NCBI GenBank assembly: GCA_020847315.1
Contig: JADLCF010000216.1
Coordinates: forward strand, 1 to 44,408
DNA length: 44,408 nucleotides
Source: Bryobacterales bacterium
Lineage (GTDB): Bacteria > Acidobacteriota > Terriglobia > Bryobacterales > Bryobacteraceae
Direction of reading: 5' to 3'
A program made the translations under genes and the position numbers. The stretch's first letter is position 1, and each line of letters opens with the position of its first letter. Positions 14,825 through 22,172 of this stretch are shown piece after piece. The notes under the pieces were generated by a model. The model ran no database searches, had not been told where the DNA came from, and saw nothing but the letters and a program-made list of their open reading frames with translations.

Positions 14825-16099
14825 ATGGAAGGACGCATTCCACAGACCGCCGCTCCTCCGATGCCTGCCCCCGCAAGCTCCTCGCTTCGCGGCGATTTCG
14901 CGTGGACCTTCGCGGGCAACGCGGTCTACGCGGCGGGCCAATGGGCGGTGCTGAGTTTGTTTGCGAAGCTGGGAAGCGCGCAGATGCTGGGCCAGTACGC
15001 CCTCGCCCTGGCGGTGGCGGCCCCCGTTGCAATGCTCGCCCACTTGAACCTGCGCTCCGTGTTGGCCACCGACACGGGCGGCAAGCATCCGTTCGGGGAC
15101 TACCTTGCCCTACGGCTGACGGTGACCGCTCTTGGGCTGGGCACGATTGCCACGCTCGCGTTTCTCTCCGCGGAGGGCTGGGCCATGCGGGCCACCATCC
15201 TAATCGTGGGGTTGGGCCTCGCCTCCGAAGCAGTCAGCGATCTCTGTTACGGCGCATTGCAACGCCGGGACTGCATGCGGCAAGTGGCTATTTCAATGAT
15301 GGGGCGTTCGGCCCTTTCCGTCGCGGCATTGGCGTTGGCGTTGTGGTTGAGCGGCAGTCTTTGGGGGGCCGTGAGCGCCCTGGCGGCCGGCCGAATCGCC
15401 GTGCTGCTGGCTTATGACTTGCCCATGGGCGCTCAGGGCGAATCGTTGCGGCGGTCCGGAAGCCGAGCGGGGAAGGACATTTTTGTCACCGCCTTGCCGC
15501 TGGGGCTCGTGCTGATGTTCATTTCCCTCAACACCAACCTTCCGCGTTATTCGATCGAACAATGGATGGGAAGCGCGGAACTGGGCGCGTTTGCGGCAGT
15601 GATCTCATTCATCACCGTGGGGAGCACGATGGCGAACGCCCTGGGGCAGAGCGCTACCGCGAGACTGGCCCGGCATTTTCATCAGCGCCGGTTTGCCGAG
15701 TTTCGCCGGATCACCTGGAGGATGGCGGGTTTCGTGGCCGGGCTCGGCTTGGCCGGAGCCGTTGTGGCGGAATTGATCGGCGGTTTCGTGTTGCGCTGGC
15801 TCTACCGTCCGGAATTTGCCGCCTATCAGCCGCTGCTTGTCGCGGCGATGGGTGCGGGAGCGTTGAGCTATCTGGCCATCGCGCTGGGCTATGCCGTCAC
15901 GAGCGCGCGCATTTTCCGCGCGCAGTTGCCTCTGTTCGCGGCCTCCGCGGCGGGCTGCGGCGTGGCGAGCTGGCTTTTGGTTCCACGATATGGGCTCTAT
16001 GGAGGGGTGCTGGCGCTGGCGCTCGCTGCCCTGCTGCAGATCGTGGGGCAGTGCTGGATTCTGAGGGGTGCGCTGCGGCGCGCGGAGGTCTCGCCATGA
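14825..16099 (+). CDS. Polysaccharide/lipid-linked oligosaccharide flippase (Wzx-like)
   Basis: A 424-residue integral membrane protein with about 12 hydrophobic segments, starting FAWTFAGNAVYAAGQWAVLS, and having the paired-helix pattern and small-residue content of the MOP-superfamily Wzx exporters. TNLPRYSIEQWMG near residue 240 resembles the conserved start of the second half in Wzx proteins. It would flip undecaprenyl-linked glycan across the inner membrane. ATG 14825 is preferred; GTG 14819 is an in-frame alternative. Its TGA overlaps the ATG of the O-antigen ligase gene. It is divergent from DUF507 across about 77 bases that should hold both promoters. Confidence 0.82.
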   Translation: MEGRIPQTAAPPMPAPASSSLRGDFAWTFAGNAVYAAGQWAVLSLFAKLGSAQMLGQYALALAVAAPVAMLAHLNLRSVLATDTGGKHPFGDYLALRLTVTALGLGTIATLAFLSAEGWAMRATILIVGLGLASEAVSDLCYGALQRRDCMRQVAISMMGRSALSVAALALALWLSGSLWGAVSALAAGRIAVLLAYDLPMGAQGESLRRSGSRAGKDIFVTALPLGLVLMFISLNTNLPRYSIEQWMGSAELGAFAAVISFITVGSTMANALGQSATARLARHFHQRRFAEFRRITWRMAGFVAGLGLAGAVVAELIGGFVLRWLYRPEFAAYQPLLVAAMGAGALSYLAIALGYAVTSARIFRAQLPLFAASAAGCGVASWLLVPRYGLYGGVLALALAALLQIVGQCWILRGALRRAEVSP

Positions 16100-17319
16100 G
16101 CGCTGAGGCGCGCCCCGCATCGTCTGAAATTTCCGCATCCCTCGTCGAACGGGCGGCTTGGCTGCTGCTCTGCGCCCTGGTCTTCACGATGCCCTGGGAA
16201 AAAGCCGTCATCCTGCCAGGTCTGGGCAGCATTTCCCGTGCAGCCGGTCTGGCGGCGTTCTGCATGGCGGCCATTGCCGTTTGGCGGCGCGGGACGCTAC
16301 GCCCACCTAATCTGGTGCTGGCGTTGGGCGCCCTGTTCGTCTGCTGGAGTTCCGCGAGTTGGGTCTGGAGCCTCGATCGCGCGGCCACGTTAACGAGAGC
16401 GGCCACCCTCGCCCAGGCTTGGGCCATGCTGTGGCTGATTTGGGAATTCGCCCGCAGCGCGGCGCGCCAGCGACATCTGATGGCCGTCTATCTGGCGGGA
16501 GCGGTGGCGGGGGCCTCCATCGGGTTCGCCCGCTATGCGATGCATCTCGAAACCTACTACCGCCGCTACGCCGCTACAGGTTTTGACCCGAACGATTTCG
16601 GCCTGCTATTGGCGCTCTCGCTGCCGATGGCCTTCTATCTCGGCCTTGGCGCGAGCGGATGGCGGCGTTGGCTCTGCTATGCCGCTGCCGCGATGGTGAT
16701 CGCGGCGATTCTGCTGACCGCATCGCGAACGGCGCTCATCGCCAGCTTCGCTTCCTTTGCATTCGTGGCGGGGACGTGGCGCGGCAGCGCGGCTTTCCAG
16801 CGCATCGCCTCACTGGCGCTCCTGGCGTATCTGCTATTGAATCTTTTCGCGTTCGCTCCAGCCCCCTCGCGGGACCGCCTGGCAACCATTCCCATGGAGG
16901 TAGCCCAAGGCAGCATCAACTCCCGCAAGCAGATCTGGAAGAGCGGCGCGAGGGTGTGGCTGCGCCACCCGGTGCTGGGCGTGGGGACAGGGGCGTATCC
17001 GGAGGCGGTGCGCCCGCAACTGGGGACGCCCACCGTGTCAGGCGCGCGCTATGTGGCGCACAACACGTATCTTTCCGTGCTGGTGGAAGGCGGCGTGATT
17101 GGCTTCGCGGTCTGGATGGCGCTGCTAGGCTGCCTGGTTGCGTTTCTCTCAATGATGCCCGTGCCGGAGAGGGCGCTCTGCGCAACGCTGCTGGCCGTCT
17201 GGGCGATCGGCATTTCCACGCTCACCTGGGAACACTATAAGGGCACGTGGCTCGTGTTCGGCCTCATCATGGCAGCGTGGCCGCGAGCCTGGTTCGGACG
17301 GAAGGCGGTATGCGGGTGA
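16096..17319 (+). CDS. O-antigen ligase / polymerase (WaaL/Wzy-type) membrane protein
   Basis: A 407-residue protein with about 10-12 transmembrane helices and the Wzy_C (O-antigen ligase) signature: RYAATGFDPNDFGLLLA, LLTASRTALIA, then a large periplasmic loop with WKSGARVWLRHPVLGVGTGA and VAHNTYLSVLVEGGVIG. The H-N-x-Y-L motif and the preceding G-x-G are typical of ligases and polymerases that use undecaprenyl-linked glycans in the periplasm. Ligase and polymerase cannot be separated by sequence. The start ATG 16096 overlaps the flippase stop (ATGA); the end overlaps the next glycosyltransferase by 10 bases. The same frame is open upstream to 15562, but that part lies inside the flippase gene. 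Confidence 0.87.
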   Translation: MSAEARPASSEISASLVERAAWLLLCALVFTMPWEKAVILPGLGSISRAAGLAAFCMAAIAVWRRGTLRPPNLVLALGALFVCWSSASWVWSLDRAATLTRAATLAQAWAMLWLIWEFARSAARQRHLMAVYLAGAVAGASIGFARYAMHLETYYRRYAATGFDPNDFGLLLALSLPMAFYLGLGASGWRRWLCYAAAAMVIAAILLTASRTALIASFASFAFVAGTWRGSAAFQRIASLALLAYLLLNLFAFAPAPSRDRLATIPMEVAQGSINSRKQIWKSGARVWLRHPVLGVGTGAYPEAVRPQLGTPTVSGARYVAHNTYLSVLVEGGVIGFAVWMALLGCLVAFLSMMPVPERALCATLLAVWAIGISTLTWEHYKGTWLVFGLIMAAWPRAWFGRKAVCG

Positions 17320-18422
17320 AAGTGCTCGAAGTGCTGGCCACGTTGAAGCGGGCCGGAGCGGAGCGAATGGCGGTCTCGCTCGCCACTCATCTGGACCCCG
17401 TCCGCTTCGAAACGCGCGTCGTCTCTCTCTATGACGCCTTCCCCGGCGGATTCGAGCCCGTGCTCGAAGAGCGCCACATCCCCACCCGGCATCTCGGGAA
17501 GCGCCGCGGCTTTGACCCGCGCATGGTTCCGCGCCTCTACCGGGAACTTCGTGAGTTCCGGCCCGATATCCTGCACAGCCACTCCTACGTGATGCGGTAT
17601 ACATTTCCCGCGGGGCTGGCCGCCGGCTGCCCGGCCATGGTGCACACGGTACACAATATTGCACGGAATGAGACGGATTGGATCGGACGCTGCGTTCACC
17701 GGGTAGCGTACCGGAAGGGCGTGGCGGCGGTGGCGGTGGGCGAGGAAGTGGCGCGCTCGTTCGAGGCTTACTACGGCTTCCCGCCCCGGGCCACCATTCC
17801 GAATGGTATTGATCTAAGTCCCTATCGCGCGGCGGCTCCCCCCGACGCTTGGCGGCTGGCGCATGGCTTCCGGGACACGGACCGGCTGGCGGTTTCCGTG
17901 GCCCGCCTGGAGCCGCAGAAGAACCCGGTGGGCCTCCTGGAAGCGTTCGCGCAGGCGTTGGGCGCGCATCCGGAATGGCGCCTGTTGCTGGCGGGAGACG
18001 GCAGTCTGCGGGACGAGACAAAGCAGACTGCCGAGCGGCTCGGGCTAGGGGAGCGGGTACGCCTTCTGGGCGTGGAGGGCAATGTCGTGGAGCTGCTGCG
18101 GGCGGCGGACCTGTTCGTTCTGGGTTCGCGCTGGGAGGGGACGCCACTCGCGGTGATGGAGGCCATGGCCGCGGGGTTGCCTGTGGTGGCGACGGCGGTG
18201 GGCGGCGTGCCTGGCCTCGTCGAGCACGGGGTGACCGGGTTGCTGGTTCCGGCGGGGGTGCCGGAGAAACTCGCTGGAGCGATCTCGACGCTCGCGCTCG
18301 ATCCCGCGCGCCGCAAGGCGTTCGGGGATGCCGCCAGAACGCAGGCGGAACGGTTCGGTGTGGAAGCGATGGTGAACGCCTACGCCGCACTGTTCGAAGA
18401 ACTCGCGGGAGGCAGGCGATGA
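17310..18422 (+). CDS. GT4-family glycosyltransferase
   Basis: A 370-residue retaining GT-B enzyme. N-terminal part: VLEVLATLKRAGAERMAVSL (acceptor side, GAER as in many EPS transferases), ILHSHSYVMRY, and ATIPNGIDLSPYR. C-terminal part: SVARLEPQKNPVGLLEAF, LLLAGDGSLRDE, and GSRWEGTPLAVMEAMAAGLP with an intact EX7E motif, then GGVPGLVEHGVTGLLVP. It transfers a sugar from a nucleotide or lipid donor to the growing glycan in the cytoplasm. ATG 17310 is used because it begins the Rossmann fold; it overlaps the ligase gene by 10 bases. Its stop overlaps the next start (ATGA). Sugar specificity unknown. Confidence 0.9.
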   Translation: MRVKVLEVLATLKRAGAERMAVSLATHLDPVRFETRVVSLYDAFPGGFEPVLEERHIPTRHLGKRRGFDPRMVPRLYRELREFRPDILHSHSYVMRYTFPAGLAAGCPAMVHTVHNIARNETDWIGRCVHRVAYRKGVAAVAVGEEVARSFEAYYGFPPRATIPNGIDLSPYRAAAPPDAWRLAHGFRDTDRLAVSVARLEPQKNPVGLLEAFAQALGAHPEWRLLLAGDGSLRDETKQTAERLGLGERVRLLGVEGNVVELLRAADLFVLGSRWEGTPLAVMEAMAAGLPVVATAVGGVPGLVEHGVTGLLVPAGVPEKLAGAISTLALDPARRKAFGDAARTQAERFGVEAMVNAYAALFEELAGGRR

Positions 18423-19567
18423 GCGCCACCGCTGAACCCTTGCGCGTGATGATGCTGATCACCGGTCTCGCCCGTGGAGGCGCGGAAGCGCAGTTGGCGG
18501 GGCTTGCCTTGGAGTTGCGCGGGCGCGGGTGCGAGGTGAGCGTGGTTTCCATGCTGCCACCGGTAGCGTTCGCCGAAGAACTGCGGAGCGGTGGGGTGGA
18601 CGTCCACTCCCTCGGCATGAAGCCTGGTAAGCCCGGGCCGCGGGGGCTGTGGCGCTTCGTGATGCTCCTGCGCGAAGCCCGGCCCCATGTGCTGCACGCC
18701 CATCTGTTCCACGCGAATTTGCTCGCGCGGCTCACGAGGTTGCTCTGCCCCGTGCCAGTGCTGCTTTCGACCATCCACAGCCTGGCGGAGAGCGGGCGGG
18801 ATTCGTCGAAGGTCCGCTTGCGCGATGGGCTCTACCGCTGCACGGATTGGCTGAGCGACCGCACGGTGAGCGTCAGCGAGGCTGTCTCCGCGCGCCACTT
18901 GGAGAGCCGGGCCGTCACTCCCCGTAGTGCGCTGGTGATTCCCAACGGCGTCGCTCCGGAACCGTTTGCGAATGGCGAGGAAACGCGCGCCCGAGTCCGC
19001 CGGGAACTAGAACTGGGCGACGAGTTCGCGTGGCTCGCGGCGGGCCGGCTGATGTGGAAGAAGGACCATGCTACGATGCTCTCGGCCATGGCGCAGCAGC
19101 CCGCTGGCATCCTGCTTATCGCCGGGGAAGGCCCACTTGAGAAGGAGTTGCGGAAGCAGGCGGAGGCGCTCGAGGCCAGGGTCCGGTTTCTCGGGCTGCG
19201 GGAAGATATCCCGTATCTGATGAGCGCCTGCGATGGCTTCGTGATGTCCTCCGTCGTGGAAGGGTTGCCCATGGCGCTCATCGAAGCGGCGATGGCGGGG
19301 CTGCCTGCCGTGGCCACGGATGCAGGGGGCGTTCGCGAGGTGATTCGCGACGGCGAAACCGGCTTCGTCGTTCCCGCGCGGGATGCGGCGGCCTTGGGAG
19401 AGGCCATGCGGCGCCTGGCCGGGATGCCGGCGGAAGCGCGCGGTGAAATGGGCGAGGCGGCGCGCCGGAACGCCGTCGAGCGCTTCAGCCTTTCCGAAAC
19501 CGCCGCGCGCTGGGAAGCCCTTTACCGGGAGTGTCTCCGCGAGGCGGAGAACGAATTACTACCATGA
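18419..19567 (+). CDS. GT4-family glycosyltransferase
   Basis: A 382-residue GT-B enzyme closely similar in layout to its upstream neighbour. MMLITGLARGGAEAQLAGLA is the GT4 opening, VLHAHLFHANLLARL follows, and the second domain has AAGRLMWKKDHATML, LLIAGEGPLEKELR and SSVVEGLPMALIEAAMAGLP (EX7E intact), then GGVREVIRDGETGFVVP. The start ATG 18419 overlaps the previous stop by four bases; the same frame is open much further upstream but only inside the previous gene. The end overlaps the methyltransferase start (ATGA). The two tandem GT4 genes probably add successive sugars of one repeat unit; this is inference from position. Confidence 0.9.
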   Translation: MSATAEPLRVMMLITGLARGGAEAQLAGLALELRGRGCEVSVVSMLPPVAFAEELRSGGVDVHSLGMKPGKPGPRGLWRFVMLLREARPHVLHAHLFHANLLARLTRLLCPVPVLLSTIHSLAESGRDSSKVRLRDGLYRCTDWLSDRTVSVSEAVSARHLESRAVTPRSALVIPNGVAPEPFANGEETRARVRRELELGDEFAWLAAGRLMWKKDHATMLSAMAQQPAGILLIAGEGPLEKELRKQAEALEARVRFLGLREDIPYLMSACDGFVMSSVVEGLPMALIEAAMAGLPAVATDAGGVREVIRDGETGFVVPARDAAALGEAMRRLAGMPAEARGEMGEAARRNAVERFSLSETAARWEALYRECLREAENELLP

Positions 19568-20352
19568 CTCCTCCCGCGCCCATGGATGTGACGAATCGAT
19601 TCGTCCTGGATTTTGCCCGCCGCTTCGAGCAATCGCGCCCGGGCGCGCGCATTCTCGATTACGGCTGCGGCGCGGGGCGTCTGGTGCAGGCCGGGCGGGC
19701 GGTGGGGCTCGCCATGGAGGGGGTTGACGTTTTCTACGCGGGTTCGAGCGCGCGCGAGGAAGCGGCGAGGACGGGATTATTGGGCAGCGCCATTCACGAG
19801 ATGATGGAAGGGCGCATGCCCTACGACGCGAACCGCTTCGACCTCATCGTCAATAATCAGGTGATGGAGCATGTGGAAGATCTCGATGCCGTCCTCGGGG
19901 AGATTCACCGCGTGCTCAAACCCGGTGGAACCGTGCTCAGCCTCTTCCCGGCGGTGGATGTCTTCCGCGAAGGGCACATCGGCATCCCGTTTTCACACTG
20001 GATGAGGAAGGGATCGCGGGGGCGCTTCTACTATGCCTGGGCGCTCCGCTCACTCGGGCTGGGCACGTGGAAAGAGCAAGCGCCCACATGCCGCCAGTGG
20101 GCGCTCGACAAACTGGATTGGATCGATCGCTTCACCGTTTACCGAAGCCGCCGTGAGATTTTTTCCACCTATGGCCGTTACTTCGCGAGTACGCTGGTGG
20201 AAGAAGAGTACATCCGCTACCGGCTGCTCGACCGCCCTGGGCGCGAATGGATCGTGAACCTGCTGCGGCTGCCGTTCCTGATGCCGCTCGCGAAGGCGGT
20301 GCTCCGCAAACTGGCGTTTCTTGTGATTCTCTCCCAAAAGGAGAGCCAGTGA
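19564..20352 (+). CDS. SAM-dependent class I methyltransferase
   Basis: A 262-residue protein with the class I methyltransferase fold: motif I ILDYGCGAGRLVQAG, acidic motif II GVDVFYAG, and FDLIVNNQVMEHVEDLDAVL followed by EIHRVLKPGGTVLSLFP (Methyltransf_11 pattern). The C-terminal half (FYYAWALRSLGLG, DWIDRFTVYRSRREI) is specific and probably binds the acceptor. In polysaccharide loci such enzymes O-methylate sugars or cap chains; that role is inferred from its place between glycosyltransferases. ATG 19564 overlaps the previous stop by four bases; its own TGA overlaps a GTG start. An in-frame ATG at 19531 lies inside the previous gene. Confidence 0.85.
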   Translation: MTPPAPMDVTNRFVLDFARRFEQSRPGARILDYGCGAGRLVQAGRAVGLAMEGVDVFYAGSSAREEAARTGLLGSAIHEMMEGRMPYDANRFDLIVNNQVMEHVEDLDAVLGEIHRVLKPGGTVLSLFPAVDVFREGHIGIPFSHWMRKGSRGRFYYAWALRSLGLGTWKEQAPTCRQWALDKLDWIDRFTVYRSRREIFSTYGRYFASTLVEEEYIRYRLLDRPGREWIVNLLRLPFLMPLAKAVLRKLAFLVILSQKESQ

Positions 20353-22172
20353 AACTGGTGTATGTCGTCACCCGCGCCGATGCCGTCGGCGGGGCGAGTA
20401 TCCATGTGCGGGATCTGGCGCGCGAGATGATCTCCCGCGGCCACGACGTCACCGTGCTGCTCGGCGGCTCCGGGCCGGTTACGGAGCGGCTGGCCGCCGC
20501 GAACATCCCGTTCCAGAGCCTGCGCTACCTGGGCCGGAGCATTCGCCCGCTTCGGGATTTGCTCGCAACCCGGGAACTCACCGCGGCGCTGCGCGCCCTG
20601 CGGCCGGATCTGGTCTCCACACACACGGCGAAGGCGGGCCTCGTGGGGAGGCTGGCCTGCCGGAAACTGAACCTTCCCTGCATTTATACGCCGCACGGCT
20701 TCGCGATCGGCAACCGCATCTCGCCGCTCCTGGGGCCGGTGTTCGCCTTCCTGGAGCGAACGGCGGCGCGGTGGTGCGCGGCCATTGTCTGTGTCTGCGA
20801 ATCGGAACGGCGGCTGGCGCTGGAGAAAGGAATCGGGCCGGCGCCCCGCCTGCATGTGATCTATAACGGCATGCCCGATGCCGCCGATGCGGATCTCGCG
20901 AAGCCGGGGGAGGAGCCAGTCCGCATCTGTTCGGTCGCGCGCCTTGAATCACCCAAGGACCATGAAACGCTGTTCGAGGCGCTCGCCGCGCTACCGCATC
21001 GGCGCTGGAGCCTCGAACTCGTGGGGGATGGACCACTCGAAGAACACCTCCGCGCCCTGGCGAAATCGCTCAATCTCGAAGAACGGATCGTCTGGAGCGG
21101 CTATTTGCCGGACCCTTCGGCAGCGCTCGCGCGCGCTCACGTGTTCGTTCTGGCGACCCACTCGGAGGCATTCCCCCGCAGCATTCTGGAGGCCATGCGG
21201 GCCGGACTGCCGGTAGCCGCTTCCGATGTAGGGGGGGTCCCGGAAGCGGTATCGGACGGGCGGACGGGCTTCCTCGCGCCGGTGGGGGACCCCGAGGCTT
21301 TGAGCGCGGCGATTGCCGAGTTGATCGAAAATGCGCCTCTGCGGCAACGAATGGGCGGCGCCGGGCATCAGACCTTTAACGAGCGCTTCCGCTTCGAACG
21401 GATGGCCGAAGAGACCCTGGCGCTGTACCGCTTGGTTGTGCGCGCCCCAAGGCAGGGGGATGAAATGGGAAATGGAACTACAAGCCTGAATCTCACCGGG
21501 AATGAGGCTCTGCTTGCAACCGCGCCCGTGGCTGCGCGTCAAGGCGGTCTGCTGGGTGGCGCCGGACCGGTGATCAAGCGTTTCGCCGACGTTGTTTTCG
21601 CGCTCGTGCTCATCCTGATCGCGCTGCCATTTGCCATTTTGATTGCGCTTGCGATTCTGCTCGAAACGCGGGGACCCATTCTCTTCAAGCAAAGCCGCAT
21701 CGGCCAGAACAACCGGCGCTTCGCGCTGTGGAAGTTCCGCTCCATGGCCGCCGACAGCGAACGGCTGCTTGAAAGCTATCTCGCCGAGCATCCCGATTTG
21801 CGCGAGGAATGGAACGCGACCCATAAGCTGAAGGACGACCCCAGGGTGACGCGCGTGGGCCGCTTCCTGCGGCGGCGCAGCCTGGATGAATTGCCGCAGC
21901 TTTGGAACGTGCTTCGAGGGGATATGAGCCTCATCGGGCCGAGGCCGATCGTCGATGCGGAGATTCCCAAATTCGGCCGCGCGTTTGCGCTCTACCTTAA
22001 AGTGAAGCCCGGCCTCACCGGGCTGTGGCAGGTCTCCGGGCGCAGCGACACGAGTTACCGCCGGCGGGTGGAACTCGATTCCCAATACATCCGCGGCTGG
22101 TCTTTGTGGCTCGATCTGAAGATCATCTGGAAGACCGTGGGCGTCGTCCTGCGGGCACACGGGGCCTACTGA
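20349..22172 (+). CDS. Bifunctional fusion: GT4 glycosyltransferase + polyprenyl-phosphate sugar phosphotransferase
   Basis: A 607-residue protein in one uninterrupted frame. Residues 1 to about 365 are a complete GT4 enzyme (TRADAVGGASIHVRDLA, NGMPD, SVARLESPKDHETLFEAL, THSEAFPRSILEAMRAGLP with intact EX7E). Residues about 410-607 are a complete bacterial sugar transferase domain of the WbaP/PglC type: one membrane helix (413-438), FKQSRIGQNNRRFALWKFRS, RRRSLDELPQLWNVLRGDMS (catalytic Asp-Glu at 513-514) and IGPRP. This part starts glycan assembly by moving a sugar phosphate onto undecaprenyl phosphate. The start is GTG 20349, overlapping the methyltransferase stop. An in-frame ATG at 21465 with AGGGGG just upstream sits in the linker, so the second domain might also be made separately. 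Confidence 0.88.
   Translation: MKLVYVVTRADAVGGASIHVRDLAREMISRGHDVTVLLGGSGPVTERLAAANIPFQSLRYLGRSIRPLRDLLATRELTAALRALRPDLVSTHTAKAGLVGRLACRKLNLPCIYTPHGFAIGNRISPLLGPVFAFLERTAARWCAAIVCVCESERRLALEKGIGPAPRLHVIYNGMPDAADADLAKPGEEPVRICSVARLESPKDHETLFEALAALPHRRWSLELVGDGPLEEHLRALAKSLNLEERIVWSGYLPDPSAALARAHVFVLATHSEAFPRSILEAMRAGLPVAASDVGGVPEAVSDGRTGFLAPVGDPEALSAAIAELIENAPLRQRMGGAGHQTFNERFRFERMAEETLALYRLVVRAPRQGDEMGNGTTSLNLTGNEALLATAPVAARQGGLLGGAGPVIKRFADVVFALVLILIALPFAILIALAILLETRGPILFKQSRIGQNNRRFALWKFRSMAADSERLLESYLAEHPDLREEWNATHKLKDDPRVTRVGRFLRRRSLDELPQLWNVLRGDMSLIGPRPIVDAEIPKFGRAFALYLKVKPGLTGLWQVSGRSDTSYRRRVELDSQYIRGWSLWLDLKIIWKTVGVVLRAHGAY

Follow-up and report, generated by a model that had tools for sequence, protein, structure and literature searches.

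The window, a stretch of 44,408 nt from a Bryobacterales bacterium (Acidobacteriota), carries a gene that joins a GT4 glycosyltransferase to a monotopic phosphoglycosyl transferase (PGT) in one polypeptide. The GT4::PGT gene (20349..22172, + strand) extends over 607 codons from a GTG start to a TGA stop. As the original prediction had it, the frame is uninterrupted and comprises two intact enzymes, and the same single frame is present in two other genomes, G101 and G007. The encoded protein is very probably a bifunctional monoPGT of a Wzy-type surface-polysaccharide operon, which most likely originated by the loss of a single stop codon between two genes and might still allow some PGT to be made in free form.

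The GTG start codon of the fused gene is preceded by AAGGAGA and overlaps the stop codon of the upstream methyltransferase gene by 4 nt (GTGA). All features described in the following are located on the + strand. The GT4 domain comprises residues 1-360 (20349..21428; the border might be drawn at about residue 365) and is assigned by Pfam, by a fold match and by a model with pLDDT mostly >85. In Pfam, GT4 domains are found at residues 13-339 (PF13579/PF13439 and PF00534/PF13692, E 4e-39 and 1e-30). In NCBIfam, several GT4 models matched the GT half, none of them reaching its specific cut-off. Among solved structures, the domain is best matched by GT4 enzymes, among them BshA, HepE and PglA of Campylobacter. 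It contains the EX7E motif E273-E281 (21165..21191), which is invariant in all three fused proteins, as well as R198 and K203, the R/K nucleotide-diphosphate contacts of GT4 enzymes (GT-B, retaining). A linker (residues 361-407; 21429..21569), recognized as fast-evolving by conservation, pLDDT and dN/dS, leads to the PGT core at residues 408-607 (21570..22169), which is of the WbaP type according to Pfam, NCBIfam and PDB. PF02397 covers residues 410-601 (E 1.4e-67, profile positions 1-178 of 179). The monoPGT core is complete: It has D414 and P427 of the DX12P motif (21588..21629), which belongs to the predicted re-entrant membrane helix (406-439 in the model), and the catalytic dyad Asp513-Glu514 (21885..21890). 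The latter had been predicted at exactly these residues, and it is present in the sequence and in agreement with the WbaP comparison. This PGT core shares its chain with a complete second enzyme, a GT4, in one frame in three genomes.

The PGT part had been designated 'WbaP/PglC-type'. Its closest PDB matches are WbaP chains (E 6e-62), with which it aligns almost gap-free up to the last residue, whereas PglC is more distant (E 2e-31). In NCBIfam, the PGT half matches the C-terminal halves of TIGR03022 (WbaP) and TIGR03025 (exopolysaccharide PGTs). WbaP is a large monoPGT, a UDP-Gal:undecaprenyl-phosphate Gal-1-P transferase, and its C-terminal ~200 residues are collinear with the fused protein, including the segment ~469-497 and the final GAY. 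By contrast, the fusion has a GT4 domain in place of the N-terminal four-helix bundle and PF13727 of WbaP. A Pfam search of the fused protein yielded no match to PF13727, and its score of 329 bits is below the cut-off of 403 bits for the full-length WbaP model. This means, the designation holds for a WbaP-type core but not for the membrane bundle and the DUF of WbaP. The core-only architecture of PglC is not found in the fused protein either, and only a hypothetical product starting at Met373 would fit it. Filing the protein as WbaP or PglC proper was ruled out, since the defining features of each are absent.

The fused frame is real, neither an assembly error nor a chance open frame. The fused state is found in three of the five sampled genomes of the genus, i.e. 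in the window and in two independently assembled relatives, where the frame is 89% (G101, a Bryobacterales MAG) and 83% (G007, an Acidobacteria MAG) identical. The G007 assembly consists of 30 contigs and is 99% complete. A missed stop codon or frameshift between two genes might be suspected because the MAG of the window is split into 404 contigs, a run of five Gs is located at the junction and a TGA is found near the junction in sister species. However, the two other assemblies contain the same open frame. Furthermore, the junction sequence differs among the three fused genes, and that of G007 has three extra codons, so that a shared error cannot explain three fused frames. An artefact is therefore extremely improbable. 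Slippage at the G run or programmed frameshifting at AGGGGG, where insertion of a single base would put a TGA in frame, was considered as well, but is unnecessary: In G007, the run differs and the frame is likewise open. Among the fused genes, dN/dS amounts to 0.13-0.16 in the GT part, 0.38-0.60 in the linker and 0.02-0.04 in the PGT part. The low values of the GT and PGT parts indicate that both enzymes are maintained by purifying selection in the fused state.

The fused gene belongs to an operon with the order Wzy_C-type polymerase or ligase, GT4a, GT4b, methyltransferase and GT4::PGT. At the operon head, a Wzy/O-antigen ligase-type membrane protein is encoded (15562..17319, +; PF04932 Wzy_C, E 3e-20; synteny). 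The GT4a gene (17247..18422, +), assigned by Pfam and synteny, may alternatively start at ATG 17310, which overlaps the Wzy stop codon. It is followed by the GT4b gene (18419..19567, +), for which Pfam GT4 domains, start and synteny agree, and by the methyltransferase gene (19531..20352, +; Pfam Methyltransf_23/11), which is located upstream of GT4 in all five genomes of the genus. The operon order is common to G007 and G102 and is found in G101 and G079 as far as their contigs reach. The PF02397 domain of the fused gene is the only one on the contig of the window. Directly after the fused gene, a gene of the 3-keto-disaccharide hydrolase family (PF06439; 22230-22931, +) is located. Behind the fused genes of G007 and G101 it is conserved, but the 7 kb that follow the unfused pair in G079 contain no match to it (the G102 contig ends there).

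The DX12P motif has been described, and a re-entrant helix both inserts into and exits from the membrane at its cytoplasmic face (PMC12802240). A soluble N-terminal GT is thus topologically acceptable. From the domain content we infer two enzymatic activities. The C-terminal WbaP-type core would be placed on the cytoplasmic leaflet, held by its re-entrant helix, and would transfer a sugar-1-phosphate from a presumed UDP-sugar to undecaprenyl phosphate, thereby starting a Wzy-dependent glycan. The N-terminal GT4, tethered by a flexible linker of ~34 residues, would extend the growing lipid-linked glycan by a sugar, which in the simplest case is its second. This order of action is proposed by analogy with EpsL/EpsD and PglC/PglA. 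PglA of Campylobacter is the second-step enzyme after PglC. Similarly, EpsL and EpsD of B. subtilis, a small PGT and a GT4, act as steps one and two (PMC10653937). The small monoPGTs PglC and EpsL and their separate GT4 partners perform the same two reaction types (PMC10653937), but they are two proteins there and one polypeptide here, and the PglC core is more distant from that of the fusion than the WbaP core is. The fusion partner of a PGT need not be the second-acting enzyme: The PGT of an independent fusion in G146 has a GT4b relative as its partner, which weakens the proposal that the fused GT4 acts second.

The probable origin of the fused gene can be read from a comparison of the five genomes of the genus. 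In G079 and G102, the operon order is unchanged and one in-frame TGA separates the GT4 and PGT genes. The junctions read GGG TGA ACT GGG AAT ATG in G079 and GGG TGA GCT GGG ACA ATG in G102. In both of them, the ATG of the separate PGT is in the GT frame, nine bases past the TGA (three codons, then ATG). In 14 further genomes of the family, a separate small PGT gene of the same orientation comes directly after the GT4 gene. In many of these pairs, the genes overlap or are a few bases apart, and the PGT is not in the GT frame. The adjacent pairs of the family (L008-L014, L016, L018, L037, L043-L047, L049) have orthologous domains in the same order and on the same strand as the fusion, but comprise two genes, which are fused here. 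In the separate domain trees, the fused genes form one clade (GT tree 100/100, PGT tree 100/99), i.e. the fusion has a single origin within the sampled genomes. Most likely, it arose once by stop loss between adjacent genes that were already in phase: The stop codon between the two genes would have been lost a single time, yielding the fused gene. Such a constellation, with an in-phase one-stop arrangement and the fused form in one genus and an otherwise unchanged operon, is rarely seen for the origin of fused PGTs, which as such have been recognized in sequence networks. In addition, the natural split and fused pairs provide material for asking whether joining two steps speeds or directs glycan assembly.

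Elsewhere in the family, the locus is more variable. In five other members (L020, L021, L022, L050, L053), the GT4 orthologue is followed by a gene whose product is not the ~240-aa core, but a large PGT in its full length (~480-520 aa). This suggests that the membrane bundle and the DUF were lost or gained at the GT4-PGT locus. Four family genomes (L015, L017, L019, L048) contain a close GT4 homologue (55-57% identical) and no PGT within the ~1.5 kb examined. Therefore, the pairing of GT4 and PGT is common, but not obligatory.

The stop loss might have been a neutral accident that did no harm, as both enzymes can work when connected by a flexible linker, and that brought no gain from their proximity. 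A disordered and fast-evolving linker, genes that are still separate in sister species and a single origin confined to one genus would be in agreement with this view. On the other hand, the fused state has been kept over a dS of about 1 (G007 vs. window), and GT-PGT fusions arose repeatedly. Such an accident is a real possibility, if not quite a probable one. For the bifunctional monoPGT favoured here, a benefit from the proximity of the two enzymes is presumed.

The start codon of the formerly separate PGT has most likely survived inside the fused gene together with a sequence resembling a ribosome-binding site, so that some free PGT may be made. An in-frame ATG with AGGGGG upstream, pointed out in the original prediction, is indeed present: The ATG (21465..21467) encodes Met373, and the Shine-Dalgarno-like AGGGGG (21454..21459) precedes it with a 5-nt spacer. 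AGGGGG is able to base-pair with the anti-Shine-Dalgarno sequence if a single G·U pair is allowed. In G079 and G102, the separate PGT gene begins with the codon that corresponds to this ATG. Counted back from the Lys that comes first in the PGT core, Met373 precedes it by 37 residues and the separate PGT start in G079 by 39, which makes Met373 most likely the old PGT start. Moreover, GGG GAT and ATG GGA AAT are codon-identical in all three fused genes, and the intervening codon specifies E, S or V. This conserved context of the ATG is embedded in the linker, the least conserved and fastest-changing stretch of the protein. Since no differences are found in the ATG, the two codons after it or the GGGGAT before it, although they are situated in such a stretch, internal initiation at ATG 21465 is plausible, and the sequence evidence for it is suggestive. 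For the ATG site, which had been named beforehand, five of six identical codons correspond to p about 0.004, given the overall conservation of the linker in three sequences; for any such 6-codon window within the linker of the same three sequences, p is about 0.11.

It is conceivable that the gene has two products by design, namely the tethered full-length enzyme and, from the preserved ancestral start ATG 21465, PGT in free form, and that their ratio matters. If this were true, the cell would set how often chains are initiated relative to the addition of a second sugar; free PGT would, for instance, keep initiation faster than the second step. The position of Met373 relative to the native PGT start, the codon identity amid a poorly conserved linker and the low p value at the site named beforehand speak in favour of it. 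However, only three sequences are compared, the window scan across the linker is less convincing, Met has just one codon, and recent divergence could leave an unused relict unchanged. A dual-product gene of this kind is rather unlikely.

An AlphaFold model, computed from aligned proteins of the window and the loci, has a mean pLDDT of 84.9 and a pTM of 0.63, with a confident GT-B domain and PGT core. The PGT core opens with a long helix (406-439) containing P427. Between the two domains, ~34 residues (370-403) are predicted to be disordered (pLDDT <50). Among the fused proteins, 45% of the linker residues are invariant, compared to 76% in the GT and 92% in the PGT part. A fixed domain interface is not supported, given that the pTM is moderate and the linker disordered. 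Consequently, channelling of the lipid-linked sugar in the strict sense, as originally proposed for the fusion, is unsupported, and the same applies to a rigid substrate tunnel. Instead, the model suggests that the linker tethers the GT4 at the membrane rather than forming a tunnel.

O'Toole, Imperiali and Allen reportedly count glycosyltransferases among the common fusion partners of PGTs. Bifunctional monoPGTs (Bi-PGTs), in which domains are fused N- or C-terminally, constitute one of three groups in the classification of these authors (O'Toole, Imperiali and Allen, 2021, doi 10.1073/pnas.2018289118, as presented in PMC10942596 and PMC10653937). The fused protein resembles Bi-PGTs in that a monoPGT core is joined to another functional domain and the Lg-PGT membrane bundle is absent. 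It differs from them in that its core is nearest to WbaP in sequence, and in that its own genus also shows unfused in-frame sister genes and, apparently, a retained internal start.

The original prediction had regarded the two enzymes as usually separate proteins and recommended a database search for the domain order. An order-wide search in 257 genomes, in which the five best places per genome were scored and fusions that involve other types of GT may have been overlooked, revealed that the fusion is not unprecedented: Independent GT4-PGT and GT2-PGT fusions were found. Since Bi-PGTs have been described and independent GT-PGT fusions exist, the fusion belongs to an already known class. What goes beyond routine is the in-frame unfused state visible within one genus along with the probable preservation of the old start. 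In eleven distant candidates for two-domain fusions (L056-L059, L061, L073, L075, L102, L107, L109, L114), the two domains turned out to be encoded by adjacent separate genes. The genome of the window itself (G000) encodes an unrelated GT2-PGT protein (PF02397) in one frame of ~616 aa on contig C213 (L004, 1432-3279, -), with relatives in the genus in G101 (L042) and G007 (G007:C1:35127). Outside the family's phylum, single-frame fusions were detected in a Planctomycetota MAG (GT4-PGT; L064, 1468-3333, +) and in a Chloroflexi MAG (GT2-PGT; L121, 2414-4411, +). In the same family as the window, G146 contains an independent GT4-PGT fusion adjoining a Wzy-type gene (L122, 2351-4255, +, G146:C263). 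Here, a GT4b relative, 47% identical to GT4b of the window, is joined to a shorter PGT, i.e. it is a convergent fusion in a similar cluster.
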